Part shown: positions 4,600-46,443 of the stretch, one piece after another | Numbering within the stretch: position 1 is the first letter of the stretch | Layout of the letters: each line of letters begins with the position of its first letter | Origin: Nautilus pompilius | Lineage: Eukaryota; Mollusca; Cephalopoda; Nautilida; Nautilidae | Direction: 5' to 3' | Length of the DNA stretch: 64,000 nucleotides | NCBI GenBank assembly: GCA_018389105.1 | Contig: JACATO010002145.1 | Location: 744,001 to 808,000 of the forward strand | Notes under the pieces: generated by a model | The model's database searches: none | What the model was told of the DNA's origin: nothing | The model's input: only the letters and a program-made list of their open reading frames with translations | Made by a program: the position numbers and the translations under genes

Positions 4600-5545
4600 A
4601 AGGAAGATAAGTTAAAATAAGGAGAGTTTATTAATCTTGGTCTTGAAATGCTGAAAGTTAAGTTAGAATGAAAGACAAAAGTGGGAAGTTGGTTTCAAAG
4701 TCCAATAATATGAGGAAAAAAGGTGCATGCTTTTAAGGGTCTGAATGGATATGCAACAAGGGTAACTAGCTGAGGCCAACCAAGTGGAATAAGCATGAGT
4801 CATGTGTGAAGAAACTGTATCTGCCAGTTCCACCATAATAGCAGCTGTAAAAGAAAGATAAAGAGAAAACTGCTCTGTGATGATCCAGAGACTGAAGAGT
4901 CAGTAAGCAAACTATCTCCTACCAGGCAAACAACCTTGGATTAAACTTGATCAAGAATACTAAGAACAGATGGAGCACCATCCCAAACATGGGTGCATAA
5001 TCCAACATAGGACAAATTTATGATTTGTAAAGAGTAAGAAGTTGAAAAGTAAACTATTTCCTGTCCCAATACAGAAACTGTAATTTCTTGGATGCCTTGT
5101 TTTGTTATACTCACAATATGGAGCCTTCAACTTCTAAAATGTTGATAGAAGTGAGAAAAAGTGCTGTGCGTGACATGAAAAGTAGGGAAACATTAATATT
5201 GGCTTTATTGGAGACAAGTAAGGATTGTGTTTTAGAATGATTAAAGGAAACAAGGTTAACCGAACCCCATTTTACAGTAGACTCAAGATTGAAGTTAAGC
5301 AAATTGGTACTTGAAATATGGCCAGCAGCAAGATACTGAGAAGACAACAGATGAGAATCGAAGCAAACTGAGAACTGGAGAATAAAATTGTCAACACAGG
5401 AATGGACTGAATTTTCAGTGGTAAACAGAAGATCATTAATGAAGGGAAGGAATACAACAGGAAAGATAACAGAGCCTTGTGGAACATCAAAGTCAATGAG
5501 GAAATATTTGAAAGGGAGCACTATTCATGCACTGTATGAAAGATT
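4600..5545 (-). pseudogene. Non-LTR retrotransposon reverse transcriptase fragment (jockey-type)
   Basis: The minus-strand ORF 5521-5111 (136 aa) carries the RT palm motif block: DVPQGSVIFPVVFLPFINDLL. It continues with the region where the catalytic YADD would lie, here decayed to SCVDN, so the catalytic aspartate pair is lost. Next come NLESTVKWGSVNLVSFNHSK and further RT blocks. Below 5111 a shifted frame continues with thumb-like sequence (SQKLQFLY, LYKS.ICPMLDYAPM and a decayed RRAV block). LINEs with GVPQGSV...FINDLL are typical of the jockey/CR1 group. The copy lacks its N-terminal RT and endonuclease, as expected of a 5'-truncated insertion. I could not find the 3' tail with certainty. 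Confidence 0.7.
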
Positions 5546-26364: not shown

Positions 26365-26997
26365 TTGTGTATAACACACACATTACTAATTTATAGATTA
26401 AAAGACTACTGTTCGTTGTGAGTTCAGCAAATATGGCAACAAAAACAAGACAACTTGCATGTTCTTGGCTAACAAGATGTATTAAGAACAGAATTCTTAA
26501 TAGGAGGAACATACTGAGTAATGGATTCTTAGCTCAAGGAAGTTAGTAACAGAAAAAAAATTTCTAATTGAAACAAATAAACCGGTCACTCTGTAAACCA
26601 CATGAAGAAAGAAAGAACTTTAGGGGAATAAAAAATCAACATAAATTATTATACGCAATTTGCTAAGCACGATCTCAAAATCTGTTAGCATGTAAAGAAC
26701 TAGAAGCAGACTGTAGGACTATCAATCAAGAAGCCAGAAACTGAAAAAGCTTAAAGTGATGACAAAAAAAAAAAAAAAAAATGCATCTGATACAATGCTA
26801 AACAAGACAACAAGTGTTGCACTGGTCCAAAATGGTTAAGAAATCTGTTTTTTAGGTATGAGATGGATGGCATGCTAACACTTCCAATTTTTCTTTATAG
26901 CAAAGGAAGCTGAATTCTGTTGTTTGTGGGGTAATTGCATATCAGTTCACCAACTTTAACTACCTTTCAGCAGCATCATCGTTGTTCCTTTCTCTTG

Positions 26998-28525
26998 GCC
27001 TTTAGTAACATTTAAGTAAATAAGCCACAAGCAATTTTTCAGTCTAAATGACAAATTAAACATAAGTAGGGGGTCAATCATTTAAATTCACAAATGTGTT
27101 TAGGGTAAATTTTCACATTAGAATATTGAAAAAACTGGTTGACGCTCTGCTCCTGAGCTTTCTTGCCATTTACCTGTATGTATACTTCTAAAACTTGTCT
27201 TTCTGAAAAGATTGTTATCAAGATGTGTCCAGGAAAATTTCCTAAACATATTTTGTACCTTTGCAGGAGAAAAAAATAAAGCTGATTTCAAAATTTTTCC
27301 TATCCAGGTTATTTCAACAATCTACTTGAGATTTGTTGTCTAACATTGCACAAACATATATCCACAAATACAAATAATTGCAAAATCTTGGAGAAATATT
27401 GGGCAGAGTAGAGACACCTAAATTTGGGGTCATGTTCCAATGGGTACAACTCTGACAACAAAAAGCCATTTAGGAACAATAGTAAACTGCTGAAACGCAA
27501 GCAACCAATCTTCCATACCTAATATGTATGTCTGGCTAAAAGGGGCACATTTTGCCCCTGTTTCTTCAATGTTCCTTAAACATGGCAATTCCACTTCTCA
27601 GAAATCTGTATCATTAAAGCTTAGTTTGCAGAGTCACTTGATGTGTGAAAATACTGAAGACATTTGGAAACTGTGCAAATATCTAGTAGATACAATATAC
27701 AGTACTTAGTGAGAAAAACAATGCATCATCCTTATATTTCCTATACTTCTTTCTTTTAAATTTGACTCCTCCATCTGTGCTATCATGATGTAAGAATATT
27801 GCATTTTTGCATCAGATACTCTTTTCTAGTTCATGGGATAATGAAATTACAAGCAGAGTGCTTCGTCATCAGTTTTCCTTACTATAAATAAAAGCAAACG
27901 ATTCTTAATCACTCGGTTTGTACTGAGGAATTGTTAGTGAATGCATCCAGTTTAGCTTCAGGAGTACAAGCTATACTTGTCATGGGTATCTGGCCTAAAT
28001 GCTTGATAGGCAAATATTTGAATGAGCAATGCCACAAAACATCATATTATAGAACATGTGTCCTCAAGGTCTTGTCTAAATATAGTAATATGGACAAACA
28101 CTTGTTACAGGCAAGATCTGGTTTCATTTCATCTGGCAAATGTTGTGCAGTTACTGCTAGACATGTGCTAGGCCATCGTCATGATGAAAACTGCCTACAT
28201 AAATTTTTCAAAAACCAAAACGTTAAGAAAGATAGCAGGGAACACCATAGTAACTATTACTAAGGCAAACACTGTCTAGATCAAGTGGGGGGAAGATAAT
28301 ACCTGGCTGGAAGCTCTATCCATGCTGCAGAACTAGATATTTAAAACTAGAAGAATCATCTTCAGATTCTCAGAAAGATGTTCTAGTGCTAGATCTATGG
28401 ATGCAGATCTGTCAGTAGAAGCAGCGGCAGTCTATCAATATCAGCTTGGAAAGTTTAGGTGGTTCCCCTGTCAAAGCTTCAAGATTAAGTGAAAGGGTAA
28501 ATTATCTTATGGAAAAAGAAAAGTC
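26998..28525 (+). repeat. near-identical direct repeat, copy 1 of 2
   Basis: This tract matches 44875-46407 with about 20 differences by eye (roughly 99%). The part from about 27906 to 28480 has no difference that I can see. It covers the left terminal repeat and the first part of the coding region of the long-TIR element. Outside the tract the two loci stay homologous for some tens of bases but are clearly diverged. Confidence 0.92.
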
Positions 28526-30030
28526 ACAGTAGCTGTCTCAACTGTACAGCATTGAGTAACAAAACTGCTCTGTAAATCCTGCTGTTAAACCAAAATCATC
28601 AAAACAGTGCACAAAATGTTGATTTTATCATGTCTCTGGAAGAAAAATGCTCTATCTCAACAAAGTAAAAACAATACTGGCACCAGGAAGCTTCAGCATC
28701 AAAACACAAGTTTGGAGTTACAGAATATACGGTTAGACAGGCTAAACAGTTACTCTGACCAGAGAATTCTTGCTTCTCCCAGGAAACACTTTGGCAAGCT
28801 GCTGATCTTGTGGAAGAAATTGTAGCCTTCTATGAGAATGAAGATGTATCCAGGGTAAGTTCTGCAAAGAAACATTTTGTTTCTGTATGGATGTATTGGT
28901 CAGTGTAAGCAAAAGCAGAAAAGACTACTATTGAAAAACTTATATAAGATTTATGTTCTTTACAAAGAAAAGCATCACAACAAAATTGGTTTCTTTGTGT
29001 AACCGTAGGATCAAAAAGTACACACAACTTTTGTGTTTGTTGTTTGTGTCATGCACCAGAATGTGAAGCTGACACTTAGTCCACTTGCTCAGTTTGGTTA
29101 CAAGATAGCAACAGAAATCTTAGTTTACAATCTTACCTACAAGGACTGTATAGTCCAACAAGTCCTGAAAAGCAGACTCCTGAAACAAGGCCTCAGAAAA
29201 TACTCAATGAGAAACATAATGATAATAACATAAGATTCATGCAGTGGACACATACAGACTTAACTGAGATTTTTAACAGAAGCATTTATAGCAGACTACG
29301 TCGAAGATCTGGTTGAAAAAGTTGACCAACTGACCAATTACCACCACATAGCAAAACCAACTCAGTTCAATCAAAGGTCTTGATGCCTGAACTGTTATAT
29401 TGATATAATATTTTGTGGAAAATTATTCTTTTATTATACAAGGTGCCAATGAAGGCTTCTGTTTGGATAATTCCCAAGCTACAATTCATCCTTTTGTAGC
29501 ATATTACAAAGAGAAGAATTGTAAGTGTGTAATAATTGACTGCTTAAAGCATGACAAAATTGCAGTACACCAACGGCATACTCTTGCACACATAAAAGTT
29601 GTGCCATCTGTTGGCCACATTCAGTACTTTGGTGATGGGACAGTGGCTCAGTATGTGAACTATAAAAACGTGGTCAACATGTGCCACTGGCTACCAGAGC
29701 AAGCCTGCAATGGCCTGAGAATAATAAAATAAGTCCTCTGATGTTATATGAACGAGCATAAAATGAAATTCGGAGGCTTAAGTTCTTCTATGTCACAAAA
29801 GAAATAGTAGATTTTCCCATCAACAAGAACTGAAAAACTGCTTAAAACCAATTAAGCAGGTACCAAGCACATGAGGACATCACCACTTTCACCCTGTCAG
29901 CTTGTTCGTGCAACAGGTAAAGTGAGTATTGTTAACCATGGTTAGTTCCCCAACGAAAGTGCAAGCACAAGCAGCCAATAAGAGTGTTGAGGAGCATCTT
30001 TTCCTCCTCAGCAATAGGATAGGAAAAGCC
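27524..30030 (+). pseudogene. Transposase-like protein of an uncharacterised family, decayed
   Basis: Plus-strand blocks in order: GAHFAPVSSMFLKHGNST; a 110-residue ORF at 27931-28263 (MLVNASSLASG...); KSTHNFCVC and HQNVKLTLSPLAQFGYK near 29010-29100; QWTHTDLTE; DYVEDLVEKVDQLTNYHHIAK near 29290-29355; then ORF 29415-29732 with ENYSFIIQGANEGF, NSQATIHPFVAYY, DCLKHDKIAVH and GDGTVAQYVNYKN; and finally RLKFFYVTKEIVDF near 29775. I recognise this ordered motif set from proteins of unknown function in aphids, hydra, corals and molluscs with ENY..W-x-x-SQ-T-[LI]-HP, D-x-x-HD and F-[SG]-DG-x-x-[AG]-QY-x-N. The spaced aspartates suggest a DDE-type catalytic core, which is my inference. The usual FFATSHGK-PCDG block is deleted, and stops are frequent. 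Confidence 0.6.
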
Positions 30031-31420
30031 ACAAGCATTAGTCATACTGTATGCAGCATCAGTACATGTCAATAATTGGTGGATTGCTCACAGAATGAAG
30101 ACTTCCAGATAAAATTCATTAACTCTGAAGAGCCCCACAGTATCACCCCCAGCAGTGAACAGATCTGGAAAATGCTACTTCATAAAGGCTGATGATGTGA
30201 ATACAATAAAGGACAAATTTGACTTTAAGAATTTTACTTATGCAGTAGTAACTAATAAATGTATAAGTCTCATTAATTTAGCGCAGTTCTATACATATTG
30301 CTAAAAGCCATGAATGTGATAGTGTTAAATGAATGTAAAGTACAAAGTCATCAGTAACAGAATCGCCATAGTTAAGAAACACATTGAACAAATGACGAAA
30401 AATTATACACCTTTCAGCCAGATGTACATGACAGGTATGGAAGTTTAGTTGTCTTGTATTTCAGCAGTTTCTTATCATCCCCTACATGGCTATTTTTCTA
30501 TCAAAGTTGTACCCATTGGCATCTGACCTCAAATTTAAGTTCCCTTACTTTGCCCATTATTTCTCCAAGACCTTTACAGTTATTTGTATCTGTAGATACA
30601 TGTTAGTACAATGTTAGAAAAGAAATTTAAAGTGAATTAATTCAATATCCCAGAGAACAAAAAATTCCTAAACCTTTTTTTTTTCCCACTTGCAAAGGTA
30701 CAAAACGTTTAGATAATTTTCCTGGACATACCTTGATAACAGTCTTTTCTAAAACAAAATTTTTAGAAGTATACATACAGGTAAATAAATGAAAAAAAAA
30801 TCAACAGAGCAGAGCATCTTCAGTTTTTTCAATACTTCACAATGTAAAATGCACCCTAAATACATCTGTGAATATAGATGATTGACACCCCCTCATTTAA
30901 TTGGTCACTCTGACTGAAATAATTATCCTATAGAAATGAAAATTTACATATGGTCTAGTTAAATGTTACTAAAAACCAGGACAAGAAGAAAAAAAATTGG
31001 AATTGGTGATGCTAGAAAGATCCTAATATCTGGGTGATTTGGCATGAAATGACTCTATGAACAACATTGGAGCAAACGAAGAAAATTTTTCTGAAATGCA
31101 GGACTGTTAAACAAGTTAGAAGTGCAAAATACATAGCTACTTGTATAATTAATTACAGATGATCAGAGCAGTGACTGCTGTACAAAAAAGTACTTTAGTG
31201 GGTAGACTTGCAAAGACCAGATAAAACAATAAAGACTAATAAACAGAAAGTTTTTACTTCTTAGTTCATGGAAAACTTTCGTTAGTATAAATGCAGTACT
31301 ATTGAAGGAATGGGCAAAACATGGTGTGATTAATGGTTGTAGTAGATTTTTAAAAAATGAAGATTAGTAAGATAATTCTAAAAAGAGAAACCTGGATCTC
31401 AAAATTTAGCAATTTAAGAA

Positions 31421-43615: not shown

Positions 43616-44806
43616 TAAATGGAATAAAAAAAAGATAAAGGCCTACATTGTTTAATATTTAGTTAATAAATTTTGTCCTAGATGTAGGGCAACAGCATGT
43701 TTTTGAGTTATTCTTCTCATATCATTATGGAAAAATCAGCATCGTTTATGCTCTATTTTTGCTTGTCTTTATTAAGCTCCTCCACCCTAACCCATGTACC
43801 ACTTTAAGATGCAAAACAGATTAAATACACTACATATAAGACTTATTAGTGAAAACACCTGTATAAATTTTTTTTAAAATATAAAATAAACTGTCCAATT
43901 CTTGGCTTAAAAATGGTTGGATTGATAATGATAATAATAAGGGATGTCTATTTCACCTAGATACTTTATTACAATCACAGCCCCTCTACATACACATAAA
44001 GCTTGAGATATGAGGGAAGGGGACAACAATTGGTGCCAGGGTCTGGAGTCAGATGTTAACTAAGATTTCTGATAAGTGATGAAAATTTATAACATTCTAA
44101 ATTTCAATTTTGAGCTCCAATAGTTTGGACATTTGGATTTGAGATCAGTAGAATTTTATATTCTGCTTATTTTTTGACAAAATACAAAGACACAATTTGT
44201 GATTTTCTATTCTGTCCTAGATTATTGTGATTAAACTGGATAGATGAAAGTAAATGAATGAAACAAGTGTACTAAAGGTAGGTGGCACTGGGGCCCAATG
44301 ATCCAATTCACTGGACACAGCAAACAAACAACCAAACGCACACACACACACACCTTATCTTCAGTTTGGCATTATTATTCTGGATTTTCAATAACAAAAA
44401 AAAATTTATTGACTTTGTTTGTATGCATATAAATTAACAAAATAAAAGCTAGGTAGTATACTAGCCTCAGCCATTTAATTTTTGGTATTAAACTACCATA
44501 CCATTCCAGATTAAAAGTCATATTTATTGTTTATTAACTACTATTTACCATGCTGCCATGTACAGGCAGCAGAAGTACTGCTGAAGTGCTAAGTAACCAA
44601 CTTTTAAAAATATTTAGCATCTTTCTAGTTACAGAATAAAGATATTCAACCAATCCTTTTACCAGTGACTGAAAAAAATCTTAAGTAATGAACAATTTTT
44701 TAAAAAAGTTGCCAGGTCAGTTCTTTAAATAATACATGAGTTTCAGAACAAAATAGTATAAAAGTTATAATTGCCTTTCGTAATTTTAAATTCCAATCTA
44801 CCACTA

Positions 44807-46443
44807 GGTCAATCCATACCAAATCATCCAAATATCAGGAACTTTCCAGCATCATTTCCATCTGTTTTCTCCCCGCCTTTAGTAACATTTAAGTAAATAA
44901 GTCACAAGCAATTTTTCAGTCTAAATGACAAATTAAACATAAGTAGGGGGGTCAATCATTTAAATTCACACAAATGTGTTTAGGGTAAATTTTCACATTA
45001 GAATATTGAAAAAACTGATGACGCTCTGCTCCTGAGCTTTCTTGCCATTTACCTGTATGTATACTTCTAAAACTTGTCTTTCTGAAAAGATTGTTATCAA
45101 GATGTGTCCAGGAAAATTTCCTAAACATATTTTGTACCTTTGCAGGAGAAAAAAATAAAGCTGATTTCAAAATTTTTCCTATCCAGGTTATTTCAACAAT
45201 CCACTTGAGATTTGTTGCCTAACATTGCACAAACATATATCCACAAATGCAAATAATTGCAAAATCTTGGAGAAATATTGGGCAGATTAGAGACACCTAA
45301 ATTTGGGGTCATGTTCCAATGGGTACAACTCTGACAACAAAAACAGCCATTTAGGAACGATAGTAAATTGCTGAAATGCAAGCCAACCAATCTTCCATAC
45401 CTAATATGTATGTCTGGCTAAAAGGGGCACATTTTGCCCCTGTTTCTTCAATGTTCCTTAAACATGGCAATTCCACTTCTCGGAAATCTGTATCATTAAA
45501 GCTTAGTTTGCAGAGTCACTTGATGTGTGAAAATACTGAAGACATTTGGAAACTGTGCAAATATCTAGTAGATACAATATACAGTACTTAGTGAGGAAAA
45601 CAATGCATCATCCTTATATTTCCTATACTTCTTTCTTTTAAATTTGACTCCTCCATCTGTGCTATCATGATGTAAGAATATTGCATTTTTGCATCAGATA
45701 CTCTTTTCTAGTTCATGGGATAATGAAATTACAAGCAGAGTGCTTCGTCATCAGTTTTCCTTACTATAAATAAAAGCAAACGACTCTTAATCACTCGGTT
45801 TGTACTGAGGAATTGTTAGTGAATGCATCCAGTTTAGCTTCAGGAGTACAAGCTATACTTGTCATGGGTATCTGGCCTAAATGCTTGATAGGCAAATATT
45901 TGAATGAGCAATGCCACAAAACATCATATTATAGAACATGTGTCCTCAAGGTCTTGTCTAAATATAGTAATATGGACAAACACTTGTTACAGGCAAGATC
46001 TGGTTTCATTTCATCTGGCAAATGTTGTGCAGTTACTGCTAGACATGTGCTAGGCCATCGTCATGATGAAAACTGCCTACATAAATTTTTCAAAAACCAA
46101 AACGTTAAGAAAGATAGCAGGGAACACCATAGTAACTATTACTAAGGCAAACACTGTCTAGATCAAGTGGGGGGAAGATAATACCTGGCTGGAAGCTCTA
46201 TCCATGCTGCAGAACTAGATATTTAAAACTAGAAGAATCATCTTCAGATTCTCAGAAAGATGTTCTAGTGCTAGATCTATGGATGCAGATCTGTCAGTAG
46301 AAGCAGCGGCAGTCTATCAATATCAGCTTGGAAAGTTTAGGTGGTTCCCCTGTCAAAGCTTCAAGGTTAAGTGAAAAGGGTAAATTATCTTATGGAAAAG
46401 AAAAGTCCAACCTTTTTAGCATTAAGTAACAATACAGCTCTGT
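44807..46443 (+). mobile_element. Long-TIR transposon, copy B (left half only)
   Basis: The left end (from about 44807, GGTCAATCCATACCAAATCATCC) resembles the outer right end of copy A in reverse complement. From 44875 to 46407 it is almost identical to 26998-28525. From 46408 to about 46443 weaker homology continues (AGCATTAAGTAACA..AGCTCTGT against AGCATTGAGTAACA..TGCTCTGT at 28548-28573) and then ends. The second half of the coding region and the right terminal repeat are absent. Its 110-residue ORF (45813-46145) is identical to that of copy A. Confidence 0.8.
44875..46407 (+). repeat. near-identical direct repeat, copy 2 of 2
   Basis: The partner of 26998-28525, in the same orientation, with starts 17.9 kb apart. 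The differences cluster in the first 900 bp: short indels in the G run, CA and GTT positions, and scattered transitions. The last 570 bp look identical. Confidence 0.92.

Follow-up and report, generated by a model that had tools for sequence, protein, structure and literature searches.

What kind of sequence occupies positions 26929–31055 of the window (the whole 64,000-nucleotide stretch of Nautilus pompilius contig JACATO010002145.1 analysed here), in which two long inverted arms enclose the remains of a protein? The segment measures 4127 bp, with termini fixed by comparison with other copies in the genome, and the extent given in the preliminary description (26930–31055) was correct to within one base. 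BLASTN aligned 27033–27591 with 30924–30360 in inverted orientation at 76.1% identity over 574 columns (E ~1e-101), and a separate repeat search of the window recovered the same ordered inverted blocks. The arm-to-arm score was 446, whereas 295 random pairs of window segments averaged 24 and reached 36 at most, none of them scoring as high. A profile of the window's three arms, which matches the window by construction, placed them at 26929–27599 (+), 31054–30352 (-) and 44807–45481 (+), giving an arm length of approximately 0.67–0.70 kb in the window element. The inverted match first described between 26930–27595 and 31055–30350 was thus borne out by BLASTN, the arm profile and the random-pair control. 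The features of the window are collected in Table 1.

Table 1. Features of the element and of its second copy in the window (P0001, protein of the relative L001).
Feature	Position	Strand	Evidence or remark
Left target-site duplication TGTG	26925..26928	.	Partner TATG, 3/4 agree
Left terminal inverted repeat arm	26929..27599	+	Start = GGGTAATTGCAT; BLASTN, arm profile, termini
123-aa open stretch	27892..28260	+	One residue differs in the second copy
Probable decayed transposase piece DLVEEIVAFYENEDVSR..	28804..28887	+	Order matches P0001 142–169
Probable decayed transposase piece QKRLLLKNLYKIY..	28901..28996	+	Resembles QKRLLLINLRELYAEYK of L024 by eye
Decayed transposase piece VCVMHQNVKLTLSPL	29042..29086	+	P0001 233–247, right order; 1/500 shuffles equally good
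Decayed catalytic core	29409..29729	+	Alignment to relatives
Right terminal inverted repeat arm	30352..31055	-	Reverse-strand start = GAGTCATTTCATGCC; BLASTN, arm profile, termini
Right target-site duplication TATG	31056..31059	.	Flank comparison of located ends
Second copy, truncated: left arm plus part of the interior, without the right part	44806..46443	+	BLASTN, arm profile

Copies of the element are dispersed in the 727.6-Mb genome. The core DNA (29409–29750) gave 19 matches on 15 contigs, the window included, some of them being pieces of one copy. The left arm gave at least 44 matches, including the window's three, with 40 of 115 candidates scored, and the P0001 protein at least 67, with 64 of 869 candidates scored. 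Among the P0001 matches listed, 55 of the 67 contain internal stops, and the window copy is not one of the 67. Analysis of 14 regions around core matches revealed both arms, inverted around the interior, in ten, one arm in three (L017, L020 and L021) and no arm in one (L018). In L040, the arms span 837 columns within an element of 3491 bp. A subfamily comprising L029, L032, L041, L043, L049 and their relatives shows mostly 87–92% pairwise identity (97–98% for L042 and L049), with left termini close to GGGGTATTCCATGTCAAATGTACAC and right termini close to GGGGCATTCCATGTCAAGTGTACAC; its 4-bp duplications include AGCT and ATCT. Two further loci, L048 and L052, are 98.7% identical over 3.8 kb; since this identity runs on into at least the flank past one end, they are probably not two insertions but products of a segmental duplication.

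Comparison of these copies revealed common ends of the form GGG[T/G]CATTCCAT, with small variations between copies. The arms end in variants of GGGTCATTCCATATCAGTTCACC or GGGTCATTCCATGCCAAATCACC. Among the 21 arm ends obtained, from arm matches beginning no later than profile position 60, nine were reached only by extrapolation of at least 18 positions, mostly without the motif there. For Sola2, the termini are described as GRG, and the ends of this family would agree with that. At a stringency of at least 11 of 12 bases, GGGTCATTCCAT or GGGGCATTCCAT occurs in 19 of the 30 loci that carry the protein (117,942 bases; L025 and L030 overlap, leaving 29 distinct loci) and at none of 127,978 window positions. 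At 10 of 12 bases or better, the motif occurs in 27 of the 30 loci, some of these matches lying inside coding sequence, compared with eight window positions. Six further left ends were predicted from the arm geometry, and in the 601–701-base stretches examined at the predicted positions the terminus was present in all six, with 14–17 of 19 bases. In L055 and L058, the predicted left terminus is present with its first base changed.

The located ends are flanked by a 4-bp target-site duplication. The duplication was analysed in the 12 elements for which both ends could be placed: the window element, three of the ten both-arm loci (L012, L016 and L023) and eight of the 29 distinct loci carrying the protein. 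L014, in which the right end is unclear, the second window copy and L001 were omitted. The 4-bp flanks of these elements agree at 36 of 48 positions (0.75), compared with 0.37 for mismatched left-right pairs, and 0 of 100,000 permutations reached 36/48. Flanks of 2, 3 and 5–8 bp never rose more than 0.03 above their own controls, and only length 4 stands out. Agreement is perfect in four of the 12 elements (AGCT, ATCT, ATCT and AGCA), three of four in five, two of four in two and one of four in one (L029), and TTAA was found in 0 of the 24 flanking 4-mers. Both the exact ends and the target duplication, for which a multiple-copy alignment had been suggested beforehand, were obtained, as GGG termini and a 4-bp duplication.

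A search with bait sequences found an intact homologue, L001. L001 is a 4-kb contig (JAAEPJ010000558.1) in a MAG labelled bacterium isolate Cli_8, and is probably eukaryotic DNA contaminating the bacterial bin. Its protein, P0001, has an intact frame of 690 aa with the motif order of the Nautilus family, and the termini of L001, GGGCAATTCCAT, lie at 206 and 3741. Unlike the window element with its 0.7-kb arms, L001 has a 12-bp terminal match, with GTACGTCCAACAC-like motifs repeated on either side; its flanks, AAAT and TTCT, agree at one of four positions, with no 4-bp duplication seen. Three Asp residues are conserved in the family, in DFSENY (28 of 30 ORF pieces), SDG (25 of 26) and HGKGxxDG (23 of 27), together with a His (28 of 29) and a last Lys (24 of 25) in the ORF pieces of the genome loci. 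These counts leave out L030, which overlaps L025, and ORF pieces below 40 aa, and are not independent of one another, some loci being closely related. In P0001, the three residues are D365, D445 and D486, with spacings of 79 and 40 residues.

Among 19 aligned members, the best Pfam match had an E value of 0.0034 and the best NCBIfam match one of 0.031, neither of them convincing; the family profile matched no PDB sequence at E up to 10. The Pfam match of the window core to DUF5509 (E 0.0034; 17.1 bits against a cut-off of 25) was rejected as chance, because only 1 of the 19 members matches, and so was FtsK_SpoIIIE (Pfam), with two of the 19 members and a best E of 0.0039. No match was found in Rfam at gathering thresholds. 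No relative was found in viral contigs with the window core, alignments A1, A2 and A3 or the intact homologue; in the genome-contig collection, alignment A1 found no relative and alignment A2 found one, L001. P0001 had no match in plasmids, and its best phage match was Bacillus phage SP-15 (two records, E 0.2), while the window core had one phage match (E 0.6). A text search of one literature collection with the exact peptide and terminus strings returned no related paper, judged by title. Proteins of this family are annotated as uncharacterised in many invertebrates. The preliminary description had assigned the family, by inference, to the DNA transposases that have a D..D..D core, a proposal supported by the arms around the protein in dispersed copies, the precise common termini, the 4-bp duplication and the three conserved Asp residues.

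Analysis of the interior of the window element indicated a reading frame that is short and broken. The peptides quoted in the preliminary description were located on the plus strand within the core. When compared with P0001, this core shows 27% identity (E 8e-5, as a single comparison) and beats all 500 shuffles, and the genome relative L035 is closer to it (1.5e-24) than P0001 is; a tblastn search of P0001 over the whole window did not report the core region. Among nine window pieces compared with P0001, A and D stood clear of the shuffles, unlike the other seven (B, C, E, E2, F, G and H). The piece at 28804–28887 was equalled by 42 of 500 shuffles, which alone is not significant, and that at 28901–28996 by 145 of 500, also not significant. 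In translated comparisons, the 123-aa stretch weakly resembles eight other loci (E up to 0.01). In the core, Tyr replaces the first Asp (YFVENYSF), the second Asp is present (GDG) and the segment of the third Asp is absent. With the first Asp changed to Tyr and the third-Asp segment missing, the window copy should not encode an active enzyme, and its broken frames likewise mark it, on sequence grounds, as dead.

A second copy, absent from the preliminary description, lies in the same window. Over 26999–28520 (against ~44876–46400), the two window copies share 1507 of their 1520 ungapped positions, and within 27601–28480 they are identical at 878 of 880. At the left edge (26929–26998), they agree at 47 of 63 positions with 14 gap columns (~75%; Fisher 2e-16), and at the right edge (28531–28573) at 29 of 35 with nine gap columns (~83%; Fisher 2e-6); beyond 28573 and 46443, respectively, weak matches alone were found, the best at E 0.031. 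Long aligned blocks from seven other copies mostly show 65–73% identity, with shorter blocks reaching ~90%. For two old copies, 18 kb apart, that are ~99% identical inside and diverged at their edges, the simplest reading would be a recent gene conversion. Elsewhere in the window, an ORF on the minus strand (5111–5524) contains VPQGSVIFPVVFLPFINDL and resembles LINE reverse transcriptases.

Taken by its anatomy, the element at 26929–31055 is probably an old, dead Sola-type DNA transposon that moved by cut and paste. While the element was active, its long inverted arms would have been bound, and its GGG...CCC termini cut, by a DDD transposase of ~660–700 aa, presumably an RNase-H-type enzyme, made by the element itself or by another copy. 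The excised element would then be joined to the target with a 4-bp stagger, and such a stagger would leave the 4-bp duplication. In the available text of one description (PMC10741241), Sola elements have a DDD transposase, 4-bp duplications, lengths of mostly 2–9 kb and TIRs of 11–1124 bp. The present family resembles that account in its three conserved Asp residues (compared as residues only), its 4-bp target duplication, its element length of 3.5–4.1 kb and TIRs within the 11–1124 bp range. Some Sola2 elements, according to the part of PMC3627910 consulted, have AT-rich 4-bp duplications, AWWT in one group, whereas the perfect duplications found here (AGCT, ATCT, ATCT and AGCA) are not AWWT. 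Other points weigh against this reading: L001 shows no 4-bp duplication, L029 agrees at one of four flanking positions and two further elements at two, and the core is modestly similar to P0001, although L035 matches it well. The family is probably Sola, placed by anatomy from published descriptions. The earlier statement that no named superfamily could be assigned stands as far as convincing Pfam or NCBIfam models and PDB sequences are concerned; it is weakened by an anatomy that fits Sola as outlined in the accessible part of PMC10741241.

Could the family instead be a separate, unnamed DDD superfamily with Sola-like 4-bp duplications and long arms, not close enough to Sola to be included? 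The database results (best E 0.0034 and 0.031 for the 19 members, and no PDB sequence match) and the lack of a related paper, by title, for the exact strings are what such a superfamily would give. However, the Pfam and NCBIfam results do not separate it from Sola, for either may lack a Sola model, and the features tested agree with the Sola description in the portion of PMC10741241 at hand; we regard this alternative as rather unlikely. The broader proposal of a large, diverse, unnamed DDD superfamily seems to us doubtful; it would combine GGG termini and 4-bp duplications with arms of between 12 bp and more than 0.8 kb and 40 residues between the second and third Asp (P0001), and its proteins would go unrecognised, listed as host genes in the annotations of many animals.

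Membership of a different named DDD/E superfamily whose duplication measures 4 bp or thereabouts (Kolobok, piggyBac, Academ or Ginger) is very unlikely, on a comparison that covered Kolobok and piggyBac. As described in the available sections of PMC9587614, Kolobok has RR/YY termini, 4-bp TTAA duplications and a C/DxxH motif between the second D and the last acidic residue, and the present family shares the RR/YY termini, the 4-bp duplication and the occurrence in animals. However, both Kolobok and piggyBac duplicate TTAA (same sections of PMC9587614), which is missing from all flanks examined here, and C or D was found three residues before the conserved His in 0 of the 10 A4 rows holding the segment (by eye). 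The related KolobokP has long direct repeats (PMC9587614, in part), and those of this family are inverted. A host gene fragment lying in an unrelated palindromic duplication would agree with the short and broken frame of the window, yet the same interior with the same arms recurs at many sites with target duplications. These repeated arm-interior-arm loci and the 4-bp duplications rule this explanation out, and we give it practically no weight.

Returning to the Sola reading, the agreement with the anatomy given in the part of PMC10741241 consulted removes most of the novelty, and the element looks real and fairly ordinary, Sola being already described. For this transposon family, the exact ends, the target duplication and three conserved Asp residues are now defined. 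Because no Pfam or NCBIfam model convincingly matches the 19 members, copies of the family may be mistaken for host genes and may pass as such in genome annotation.
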